46,515 bases of DNA, from assembly GCA_903835265.1 (NCBI GenBank), contig CAILMG010000073.1, positions 1-46,515 on the forward strand, given 5' to 3'. Of this stretch, positions 27,896 through 30,951 are shown piece after piece. Both the position numbers and the translations under genes were made by a program. This DNA is from an uncultured Methylococcus sp. GTDB lineage: Bacteria; Pseudomonadota; Gammaproteobacteria; Methylococcales; Methylococcaceae. Positions within the stretch are counted from its first letter, which is position 1. The number at the start of each line of letters is the position of its first letter. Below the pieces are notes generated by a model that had not been told where the DNA came from, ran no database searches, and saw nothing but the letters and a program-made list of their open reading frames with translations.

Positions 27896-28438
27896 ATGAG
27901 GATCAAGCATCATCGGCTCGAAGGCATCCGCTTCATCGAAAGCCCCAATCAAGACCAACGGCCCCTTAGAGAGGATCCCGATCTCATCGTGATCCACTGC
28001 ATCAGCCTTCCTCCGGGTCAATTCGGCACCGAAGGGATTATTGAACTCTTCACCAACCGCCTTGATCCCGAGGAACACCCCTATTATCAGGGCATTGCAT
28101 CGCTTAAGGTCTCAGCCCATCTGGTCATTCGAAGAGACGGCGAGATCATCCAGTTTGTCCCTTTCGATCGACGAGCTTTCCATGCGGGCATCTCGTCCTA
28201 TCAGGGACGGGAGGCCTGTAACGATTTTTCGATTGGCATTGAGCTTGAAGGGACCGATGACACCGGCTATGAGGCGATACAGTACGATCAGTTGAACCTT
28301 GTTATTGACGCTCTGATCACCACCTACTCCCCGCTATCGAGATCTAGAATGGCGGGACATCAGGAGATTGCGCCTTTGAGGAAGACCGACCCTGGGCCCT
28401 TCTTTGAGTGGCACCGTGTTGATCGAGGTGAGGCGTGA
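27896..28438 (+). CDS. ampD: 1,6-anhydro-MurNAc-L-alanine amidase AmpD
   Basis: AmpD is a cytoplasmic zinc amidase in peptidoglycan recycling and an indirect regulator of beta-lactamase in organisms with ampR-ampC. The 180 residues match E. coli AmpD closely: LIVIHCISLPPGQFG holds zinc ligand His34, CNDFSIGIELEGTDD the catalytic Glu, and AGHQEIAPLRKTDPGP zinc ligands His155 and Asp165. The ATG at 27896 has no good ribosome site. It lies 47 bases after lspA and ends in a terminator. Confidence 0.96.
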   Translation: MRIKHHRLEGIRFIESPNQDQRPLREDPDLIVIHCISLPPGQFGTEGIIELFTNRLDPEEHPYYQGIASLKVSAHLVIRRDGEIIQFVPFDRRAFHAGISSYQGREACNDFSIGIELEGTDDTGYEAIQYDQLNLVIDALITTYSPLSRSRMAGHQEIAPLRKTDPGPFFEWHRVDRGEA

Positions 28439-28486: not shown

Positions 28487-28514
28487 AAAAAAAAGCCCCA
28501 AGATGGGGCTTTTT
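28487..28514. terminator. Bidirectional Rho-independent terminator between ampD and the 26-codon ORF
   Basis: GCCCC-AAGAT-GGGGC has eight A residues on one side and five T on the other, so it can act on ampD (plus) and, with an eight-T tail, on the minus-strand micro-ORF at 28568-28648. Confidence 0.8.
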
Positions 28515-28567: not shown

Positions 28568-28648
28568 TTAGTCGTCATTTTTGTTTTCACGAATGTCCAC
28601 GGTCGCCACCGCACCAATCAAAACCACGGTCAAAATTAATATTTCCAT
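28568..28648 (-). CDS. Candidate 26-residue single-span membrane peptide
   Basis: Not recognised. ATG at 28648, TAA at 28570-28568. The peptide starts MEILILTVVLIGAVATV, one hydrophobic span, and ends in a charged tail (DIRENKNDD). A TAGGAG ribosome site lies 6 bases before the ATG, one of the best in the window. The AT-rich stretch upstream (28660-28740) could hold a promoter, and a strong terminator follows. Its size and layout resemble small subunit peptides of membrane complexes (for example CydX, KdpF), but its sequence matches none I know. The same region on the plus strand has no convincing gene. Confidence 0.6.
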   Translation of the reverse strand: MEILILTVVLIGAVATVDIRENKNDD

Positions 28649-28762
28649 TATCTGCTCCTAGTCATTAAACGCAGGATGACTGTAACAGAAAACAATTGAC
28701 TTTATAATTTACTCATTATTTCCTAAAAGGAAACAAGTGACCCACCCCTCTCTCGAAGGGAA
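28649..28762. other. AT-rich intergenic stretch with an inverted repeat
   Basis: Contains TTTCCT-AAA-AGGAAA (around 28720-28735), a 6-base inverted repeat that could be an operator. On the plus strand there is a TTGACT (about 28697) followed by AT-rich sequence. On the minus strand a TATAAA lies upstream of the micro-ORF. None is decisive. Confidence 0.3.
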
Positions 28763-28801
28763 GCCATAAAAAAACCCGGGTAGCCCGGGTTTTTTTATGG
28801 C
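28763..28801. terminator. Perfect 39-base bidirectional terminator palindrome
   Basis: Two perfect 18-base arms (GCCAT, seven A, CCCGGG; then the complement) are separated by TAG. There is a T7 run on either strand. It ends the minus-strand mtoX operon. Confidence 0.9.
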
Positions 28802-28830: not shown

Positions 28831-28983
28831 TTACTCCCCGTGATCGCGCTCGGCCCGGATCGCAGCCAGCCTATTTTCTGAATCCCGATCAAGGATTCGA
28901 ACCGGCTGCATGACCGGCTGTGAGGCGATGCGGTCGATCAAAAGAAATACCACCAACATGACACTTAGAGAGATTAGTTCCAT
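28831..28983 (-). CDS. 50-residue single-span membrane protein at the end of the mtoX operon
   Basis: Not recognised. ATG 28983 has a GAGGG site 5-6 bases upstream; an ATG at 29016 in the same frame has none. The protein begins MELISLSVMLVVFLLIDRIA, a single N-terminal span, then about 30 polar residues ending RLAAIRAERDHGE. It lies 51 bases after the SCO-MauG fusion gene, on the same strand, and just before a strong terminator, so it is probably co-transcribed. The start pattern (ME, then a hydrophobic run, then Asp) is like the 26-residue peptide next door. A role as an accessory or anchoring peptide for the oxidase system is conjecture. Confidence 0.6.
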   Translation of the reverse strand: MELISLSVMLVVFLLIDRIASQPVMQPVRILDRDSENRLAAIRAERDHGE

Positions 28984-29034: not shown

Positions 29035-30951
29035 TCAATGAAAAGTTCCCGATGCGGGGCTGACCTTTCTAAGAGTCTGGCTATCCTCATCGCCAACCGG
29101 CGCACTCCAAGCATCTTCAACCAATAAAGGAACACGAGGACTGGTGAGCGTTTCAAGAAATAAAACCAGCGCCGCCCGTTCTTCAGGCGTCAGGCGAAGG
29201 GGTTTGATCAAGGGATCTAAGGCCTCATGTTGAACGCCGCCCGCCTGATAAAAATCGATGACCGACGGAAGGGTCGGAAGACTCCCATCATGCATGTAAG
29301 GAGCGGTCAGTGCGACGTTCCGAAGGGAAGGGGTTCGATAGGCCCACCGGTCCTTGGGATTCTGGGTCCATTCATAGCCGCCAAGATCAGAAGGTGGAGG
29401 GCCCGATACCGGTCCCAGGCGTTGAGTATTGATGAGAAACGTCACGCCAGGCGCCACCTGAACGGGGGTTTGATCCATGCCAAGGCCCATGCTGGCGCGA
29501 TAGCCAATCCCGGTATTGTGGAGCGCATCATCGGTCAAAAAGGCCACACGTTGGTTGATCAGGTGGCAGCCTGAGCATCCCGCCTGACCCTTAAAAAGAG
29601 CAAAGCCTCGTTGGGCCTCAAGACTAATGGCGCCTGCCTCGTGGCCAAAGTACCAGCGATCAAAAGGCGAATCACCCGCGACCAGGGTCCTCTCATACGC
29701 CGCCAAAGCCTCCCCTACCGTGCTCATATTCGCCGGCTGACCGCCAAAGGCCTTTTCAAAAAGGCCCCGGTAGTCAGGAAGATGCTGCAAGGCCCCCATG
29801 ACGGCGCCCACAGAAGGGTTACCCATCTCGTTTGGCGCTAAAAGAGGACCCCAGACCTGCTGTTCGAGGGCCGTCTCCCGCCCATCATGAAAGAGGATCG
29901 GCCAGTAGGCCGCATTCAGTAGGGTCGGCGCATTCCGGCGAACAGATCGTCCCTCAAGGCCCACCGCCGTCGCCTGCTCTTGACTGGTGAATCCCTGCTC
30001 GGGGATATGACACATCGCACAGGAGATGGTGTGATTCAGTGACAGACGACGGTCATAGAAGAGTTTCCGCCCCAGCGCAATCTTGTCCCGAGTCAAGGGC
30101 TGCTGTGCGGGCACGGGGACCTTCGGAAGCCCAAGCCCTGGGTTCCTTGCAAGAGAAAGAAGATCCTGAGGGTGCCCGCGCCGCTGACTTAAGGCGGCGG
30201 CATGGGTTTCATAATCCGCCGACTCATAGTGCTTCTTATCATCCCCCGCCGCCAAATGGGGAGATACCCCCAATGACGCCGATGGCACTTCCTTCGGGGC
30301 CTCTATCAGAAGCGTCTCAAGATCAGCCATCACTAAATCCGGATGGAGCGCTGACGTGCTATAGATATTCCGTATCGCTCCCTGGTCATCCAAGAGGAAT
30401 AGACGAAGGGCATGAGAAAATCGCTGCCCCTTCGGAGTCTGTTCAGCGTCCAAGGACTGCCCATAGGCCTTCAAAATGGGCTCAAGGTCTGTCTTCGAAG
30501 CGGTGGTCAAAAAATGCCAGTCGGATGCCGCTGCGTTCAACGACTCACCAAAACGCGCCATGACCGCCGGCGTGTCTTTGTCAGGATCAAAACTGAGTGT
30601 CACCAGTCTGACGCGGGCCTTGAGGGCTGGACGCTTCAAAAGGGCCGCCTGAACTTGATGCAGAACCATCGTCGCCATCGGGCAACCTCCGGCGTCATCA
30701 CAGCTGGTATAGATAAAGCTCAAAAGGACCACCCGACCCTTGATCAGGGAAGAGAGCGAGGTGGCCGAACCATTGGATTCAAGGACTCGACCATCGGCAG
30801 CGGGCCCCATCACCGGCAAACGATAGGAACCTGCGGCCGGCGCGGCATAGGGGAGAGGGGAGCTCAAAGCTGCCCCTTCTGAGGGATCGGCGGCACTCGC
30901 CGAAAGCCCCCAAAGAAGAGGCAGGAACCGAAAAAAACCTTTGAGGCTCAA
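29035..30951 (-). CDS. SCO/SenC copper-chaperone domain fused to di-heme MauG/cytochrome c peroxidase
   Basis: A 638-residue exported protein (signal peptide ~1-21, ending SASA). Residues ~45-215 are a SCO/SenC thioredoxin-like domain with copper-ligand candidates Cys84 and Cys90 (YTSCDDAGGCPMA, five residues between them instead of the usual three) and His180 (RFSHALRLFLLD). Residues ~280-615 are a di-heme peroxidase of the MauG/CcpA family, with heme motifs CAMCH (311-315) and CSGCH (459-463) and the APYMHDGSLPTL segment. It starts at TTG overlapping the mtoX stop (TTGA). In known mtoX loci SCO and MauG proteins are encoded separately and are thought to mature MtoX. The frame is open through the join, so this is a true fusion in this sequence. 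Confidence 0.9.
   Translation of the reverse strand: MSLKGFFRFLPLLWGLSASAADPSEGAALSSPLPYAAPAAGSYRLPVMGPAADGRVLESNGSATSLSSLIKGRVVLLSFIYTSCDDAGGCPMATMVLHQVQAALLKRPALKARVRLVTLSFDPDKDTPAVMARFGESLNAAASDWHFLTTASKTDLEPILKAYGQSLDAEQTPKGQRFSHALRLFLLDDQGAIRNIYSTSALHPDLVMADLETLLIEAPKEVPSASLGVSPHLAAGDDKKHYESADYETHAAALSQRRGHPQDLLSLARNPGLGLPKVPVPAQQPLTRDKIALGRKLFYDRRLSLNHTISCAMCHIPEQGFTSQEQATAVGLEGRSVRRNAPTLLNAAYWPILFHDGRETALEQQVWGPLLAPNEMGNPSVGAVMGALQHLPDYRGLFEKAFGGQPANMSTVGEALAAYERTLVAGDSPFDRWYFGHEAGAISLEAQRGFALFKGQAGCSGCHLINQRVAFLTDDALHNTGIGYRASMGLGMDQTPVQVAPGVTFLINTQRLGPVSGPPPSDLGGYEWTQNPKDRWAYRTPSLRNVALTAPYMHDGSLPTLPSVIDFYQAGGVQHEALDPLIKPLRLTPEERAALVLFLETLTSPRVPLLVEDAWSAPVGDEDSQTLRKVSPASGTFH

Follow-up and report, generated by a model that had tools for sequence, protein, structure and literature searches.

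Does a reading frame of 26 codons that gene callers missed represent a genuine gene, and if so, what might its product do? The frame lies on the minus strand of a contig from an uncultured Methylococcus sp. (CAILMG010000073.1), and by the window we mean the whole 46,515-nucleotide stretch of this contig that was analyzed. The original prediction described an unannotated membrane peptide with translation and termination signals of its own. On re-reading of the sequence, the frame, its start and its stop were as described, and the Shine-Dalgarno sequence was present at the distance given for it. The claim of one hydrophobic span followed by a charged tail also agreed with the hydropathy analysis, in which residues 3-17 formed the sole hydrophobic span (mean Kyte-Doolittle value 2.9). 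The features of the locus are listed in Table 1.

Table 1. Features of the peptide locus in the window, its context, and the related peptide-less element
Feature	Position	Strand	Basis or remark
Small open reading frame (smORF), 26-aa one-span membrane peptide MEILILTVVLIGAVATVDIRENKNDD	28568-28648	-	Conservation of family A1 and purifying selection
Shine-Dalgarno sequence TAGGAG, 6 bases 5' of the ATG	28655-28660	-	Sequence
Predicted -10 TACAGT with TG ahead (extended -10)	28679-28684	-	Consensus only; position common to the copies
Conserved promoter block, 43.6-bit match to model R3	28675-28736	-	Window promoter is itself in the R3 training set
WatR-type palindrome CTTGTT-TCCTTTTAGGA-AATAA (motif ATTGTT-N11-AACAA)	28716-28737	-	Motif from PMC10355033
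Intrinsic terminator at the end of the peptide transcript; acts bidirectionally, for the AmpD-type gene too	28487-28514	-	Hairpin against shuffles
Intrinsic terminator that ends the 50-aa gene upstream and insulates the peptide unit	28763-28801	-	Hairpin against shuffles
Another small membrane protein of 50 aa, from a conserved family of its own; context, outside the peptide unit	28834-28983	-	Own ECF-like promoter
AmpD-type amidase gene, convergent neighbor; context	27896-28438	+	Name presumed from resemblance
Peptide-less RNA element with invariant CUUGCUCCUCCUU and terminator, beside a TrmH-type methyltransferase gene	L189:1511-1686; L195:1574-1747 (-); L190:1501-1675		

The peptide had also been placed between two strong terminators. 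Both hairpins exceeded their shuffled controls, with z-scores on the two strands of -3.4 and -3.5 for the hairpin beyond the stop codon and of -6.3 and -8.0 for the upstream one. Thus the existence of the two structures was upheld, but their roles had to be refined. That is, the upstream hairpin is most simply explained as terminating the adjoining 50-aa gene, and the other is bidirectional and is shared with the convergent gene, which we take from its resemblance to encode an AmpD-type amidase. If the upstream hairpin ends the 50-aa gene, the promoter of the peptide gene should lie between 28649 and 28762. A dedicated promoter block in this interval and the terminator after the stop codon support the view that the peptide has a short minus-strand transcript of its own.

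The 50-aa gene is likewise unannotated, is conserved in five of the six genomes of the genus, and has its own terminator. Its promoter resembles those of ECF sigma factors (GGAACTT-N15-CGTC); the window copy has CCTC, and its GGAACTT is at 29043-29049. In the genome of the window (G000) and in G004, this gene immediately follows a di-heme cytochrome c peroxidase-like gene. Homology of the 26-aa peptide to this neighboring 50-aa family was considered and found to be unsupported (hhalign, 24% over the first 21 residues).

In a first search of 61 relatives, the peptide was found beside an AmpD-type gene in the closest relative, and more copies were found elsewhere. That relative (G005) keeps the order ampD, peptide, 50-aa gene, and its peptide is 88% identical to that of the window; the frame is therefore retained in a close relative that shares the flanking genes, where its absence would have counted against the original prediction, and the prediction is supported. 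With alignment A1, ten copies were found in five of the six genomes of the genus (Methylococcaceae). The copies share the pattern ME-(hydrophobic)-A-x-ATVD, in which M1, E2, A15, T16, V17 and D18 are invariant, and they range in length from 26 to 43 aa with hydrophilic tails that vary freely. Differences at the three codon positions, summed over all pairs, were 233, 38 and 421, and pS was 0.58 vs a pN of 0.19. Within the first 18 codons, two pairs of copies at the same locus gave ratios of synonymous to non-synonymous differences of 6:0 and 4:0. The 6:0 pair consists of the window copy and its nearest same-locus relative, which is also beside an AmpD-type gene, and it shows the synonymous bias by which the original prediction proposed to check the frame. 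In every copy with a readable stop codon, a hairpin and a T-run follow shortly 3' of the stop. Judged from these comparisons, the smORF is a genuine translated gene under purifying selection, and the peptide is conserved in a group of freshwater methane-oxidizing bacteria.

Outside the genus, no copy rose above noise among the remaining 32 genomes of the family, among 201 genomes sampled from the order or among 369 sampled from the class, and searches of viral and plasmid sequences with the window peptide family were empty. Neither the peptides nor the RNAs had a match above the curated cut-offs of Pfam, NCBIfam and Rfam; the Rfam search of the window and the peptide loci gave nothing except a nearby c-di-GMP riboswitch in L226.

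The neighbors of the peptide gene differ from locus to locus, and no partner gene accompanies it. From their resemblance, we take the genes adjoining the copies to be AmpD-type, exonuclease VII-like and cti fatty-acid isomerase-like genes, with a YigZ-like gene near one copy. Further sites are presumably an array of conjugative-element genes and the interval between ammonium-transporter-like and release-factor-3-like genes. In G004 and G001, genes other than the peptide gene follow the AmpD-type gene, and therefore the peptide unit has moved, or has been lost and gained. Two copies (L055 and L061) adjoin what we take to be TraD/TIGR03747-like genes, and L055 also adjoins presumed TraL/TraE/TraK-like genes. 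With such Tra-like neighbors, the unit may be carried by conjugative elements.

A common block of about 60 bp is located upstream of the copies; it reads TTGTTTCC-N5-GGAAAC, then TTGT about 35 nt further on, and then a -10 element TAnAGT. The block contains the palindrome TTGTTTCC-N5-GGAAA, although some copies carry half a box only (the G004 prfC locus and G001). A sequence-only promoter model trained on the ten peptide genes (R1) was run on the six genomes of the genus, and it recovered its ten training genes and one further related locus in G004 (E 0.004), a site that precedes no peptide and belongs to the peptide-less element of about 120 nt discussed below. A model of the peptide-less element built without any peptide gene (R2) weakly matched three peptide promoters (E 0.004, 0.04 and 0.12). 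A third model (R3) was made from 14 such promoters, none of which came from Methylomonadaceae, as we call family f8 from its Methylomonas and Methylobacter matches. Applied to 301 genomes of the order, R3 gave E values down to 1e-6 outside the training family, and the genomes with the best matches held several each, up to eight. Because AT-rich genomes inflate weak matches, only the best loci were read. The result was clear: 21 of the 23 best out-of-family loci encode one coherent family of membrane peptides of about 50 aa (L217-L239, alignment A6), and the other two (L228 and L234) have the promoter and CCUCC but no peptide.

A regulator with a matching site is already known in this order. 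WatR of Methylomonas sp. DH-1 is a LysR regulator, the ChIP-seq motif of which is ATTGTT-N11-AACAA, and it represses five unannotated smORFs of about 50 aa, watS1-watS5, and activates them on acetate (PMC10355033). WatS1-4 are homologous to one another and have one predicted transmembrane domain, and WatS5 is unrelated to them in sequence (PMC10355033). Overexpressed WatS peptides improve the growth of DH-1 under acetate; the gain in acetate tolerance from WatS1 depends on the presence of the RND pump WatABO, and direct contact between WatS and the pump has not been demonstrated even in DH-1 (PMC10355033).

The palindrome of our block has the core and the spacing of the WatR motif. On the gene strand, the box of the window has two mismatches to the consensus, and on the opposite strand it reads ATTATT-TCCTAAAAGGA-AACAA with one mismatch. 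About seven matches with two mismatches to the bare motif are expected per window by chance, and the case for a WatR box therefore rests on the whole block and its recurrence. The paralogues, the common promoter and the link to WatR are additions to what the original prediction contained.

The family of about 50 aa (A6) is multi-copy and has invariant D, F, SG, S and F positions; its scanned members had no Pfam or NCBIfam match above the curated cut-off. The block was also present at members found by protein search alone (L240, E 1.1e-6; L242, E 0.0015), and the protein-found members include one on a viral contig and one on a Methylobacter plasmid. From its size, promoter and genus, we think that this family is probably that of WatS1-4. 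In the plasmid case (L242, Methylobacter sp. YRD-M1, 61.8 kb), the WatS-type gene is annotated just as a hypothetical protein and immediately follows umuD and a Y-family polymerase gene. We also asked whether the 26-aa family is homologous to A6, and the hhalign probability was 1.3%. We dropped the idea that the window peptide corresponds to a second helix in WatS-type proteins, as the profiles did not support it.

A candidate for the regulator was found in the genome of the window. In G591, a WatR box with one mismatch separates a WatS-type gene from a divergent LysR gene, and a methyltransferase-like gene comes after the latter. A search for LysR genes and boxes that covered about 29% (0.72 Mb) of our genome gave a LysR gene (G000:C102:1069-1998, L344) whose product is 62% identical to the LysR protein of G591. 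The sequence ATTGTTTCGGTTAGACAACAT is located about 20-40 bp ahead of its start and has three mismatches at the exact spacing. This gene is followed by a CYTH-type gene, not by a methyltransferase gene. We regard it as a candidate for the WatR of the window organism.

From the observed gene, its conservation and paralogy, the common promoter element and the WatR-motif match, we propose, with a probability of roughly 0.6, that the window peptide is a WatR-box-controlled, WatS-like accessory membrane peptide that acts on an RND pump. The peptide gene would be a transcription unit of its own, driven by a dedicated promoter that carries a WatR-type LysR site and closed by the intrinsic terminator. 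As in DH-1, WatR would repress the gene during normal growth and activate it upon a build-up of acetate or a related weak acid. Once made, the peptide would enter the inner membrane as a one-pass helix (in a predicted orientation), and this helix would dock on a bigger membrane protein, of which an RND efflux pump is the likeliest, and alter the specificity of that protein. The parts of this scheme differ in strength. Control by a WatR orthologue is highly probable, and acetate or another weak acid is the most likely inducer by analogy with DH-1; for action by docking of the helix on an RND pump, which is also argued from analogy, we see roughly even odds.

The peptide resembles WatS1-WatS5 in being encoded by an unannotated intergenic smORF of a Methylococcales methanotroph with a WatR-type palindrome upstream (PMC10355033). 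As with the WatS peptides of DH-1, there are several paralogues per genome at scattered loci, each with one predicted membrane span. WatS5 is unrelated in sequence to WatS1-4 (PMC10355033), and so is the window peptide to the family of about 50 aa. In contrast to the WatS peptides of about 50 aa, the members of the window family have 26-43 aa (26 in the window copy) with one hydrophobic span; they carry the conserved ATVD at the end of the helix and are confined to one genus of Methylococcaceae. Since homology to the family of about 50 aa fails, we call the peptide WatS-like by control and form and not a member. The model used for WatS is AcrZ (PMC10355033), the one-helix inner-membrane peptide that tunes the RND pump AcrB in Escherichia coli. 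Binding and structure are established for AcrZ, whereas the window peptide is likened to it by form and its pump partner is proposed.

The docking partner may differ from that of the WatS peptides, because the sequence is wholly unlike the family of about 50 aa. A WatR-regulated peptide could instead act on another transporter or on a respiratory or methane-oxidation complex, and the small-residue motif G/A-A-x-A-T in the helix would suit helix packing there. We consider a partner other than an RND pump rather unlikely, since the common promoter suggests the same stress response and no partner gene travels with the peptide. The main rival of a different kind is a type I toxin-antitoxin system, in which overproduction of the peptide would depolarize the membrane and an RNA would hold the peptide down. 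Type I toxins such as Ldr, Ibs and TisB are short hydrophobic single-span peptides and are often multi-copy. The window family is similar in its short hydrophobic form, its several copies per genome and its restriction to one lineage, and some copies lie within a conjugative-element gene array. However, a conserved antisense promoter was looked for across the peptide copies and was not found (an RNA might still act in trans), and the predicted leader has just about 25-30 nt. Moreover, the promoter matches that of a LysR regulon responsive to a metabolite, and overexpression of the promoter-sharing WatS peptides in DH-1 aids growth under acetate and does not kill. A toxin is thus unlikely.

Two further readings concern whether the peptide is the product at all. 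The RNA might be the main product, that is, a base-pairing small RNA carrying an incidental smORF, as would fit the peptide-less relatives with the same promoter and terminator and the CCUCC of many related 3' UTRs. Coding selection is strong, however, and neither the window copy nor its same-locus relative carries the motif, and we hold this reading to be very improbable. Any sequence contains many frames this short, and the one here could have arisen by chance, without function; against ten conserved copies, a synonymous bias, a common promoter and terminators, this is hardly credible.

An RNA role beside the peptide deserves consideration for the sister copies. Of the 29 3' UTRs in the wider set, 15 have CCTCC ahead of the terminator, vs 3.4 expected by shuffling, and none has GGAGG; the excess is to be taken as indicative, because related copies are not independent. 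At the exonuclease-VII-like locus, CCTCC is in a loop closed by GTTCT/AGAAC, and in another species the pair is ATTCT/AGAAT. CCTCC was sought in the window copy and its same-locus relative and was absent, and the anti-Shine-Dalgarno idea was dropped for the window copy. A peptide-less element of about 120 nt, found twice in G004 and once in G001, has the same promoter, the invariant CCGGCTTCAGAGTCTTGCTCCTCCTT and a terminator, and it is a candidate anti-Shine-Dalgarno small RNA. At apparently the same TrmH-type place in genus g8, the block drives a hydrophobic peptide of 35 aa, MTTLELILILAFVGTIGGTIRFLRNNYPGKPSSDS (L200/L201; G012 and G021). In two species its coding region is the same nucleotide for nucleotide, even though the flanks have diverged, which suggests a constraint at the RNA level.

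The CCUCC before the terminator and the peptide-less copies suggest that the sister transcripts, to the exclusion of the window copy, may have a dual function as peptide and RNA. Small proteins and regulatory RNA are combined in the short stress-controlled transcripts ccaF1-CcsR1-4 and Pos19 of Rhodobacter sphaeroides (PMC10253847, PMC5036791). The CCUCC-bearing sister copies resemble these, although the promoters and proteins differ and the window copy lacks CCUCC. More broadly, there might be a WatR-type system throughout Methylococcales, in which one regulated promoter drives interchangeable lineage-specific peptides, many of the transcripts are dual-function CCUCC transcripts, and peptide-less small RNAs persist. 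The copies counted there as persisting separate small RNAs are in G004 and G001 (near the TrmH-type gene), G139 and G186. We offer this wider scheme tentatively and think it possible but doubtful. If it is true, acid stress would induce a pump-tuning peptide together with an RNA that reduces the translation of other genes.

Returning to the WatS-like reading of the window peptide, the findings extend smORF control of the WatR-WatS type, known from one Methylomonas strain, across the order of methane oxidizers. The same promoter is kept while the peptide sequence is replaced between lineages, and this provides a testable case of whether pump-tuning membrane peptides need a specific sequence or just a short helix. 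A possible companion small RNA is also indicated. In addition, many unannotated genes are added to methanotroph genomes that serve biotechnology, a field in which acid tolerance is sought by engineering.
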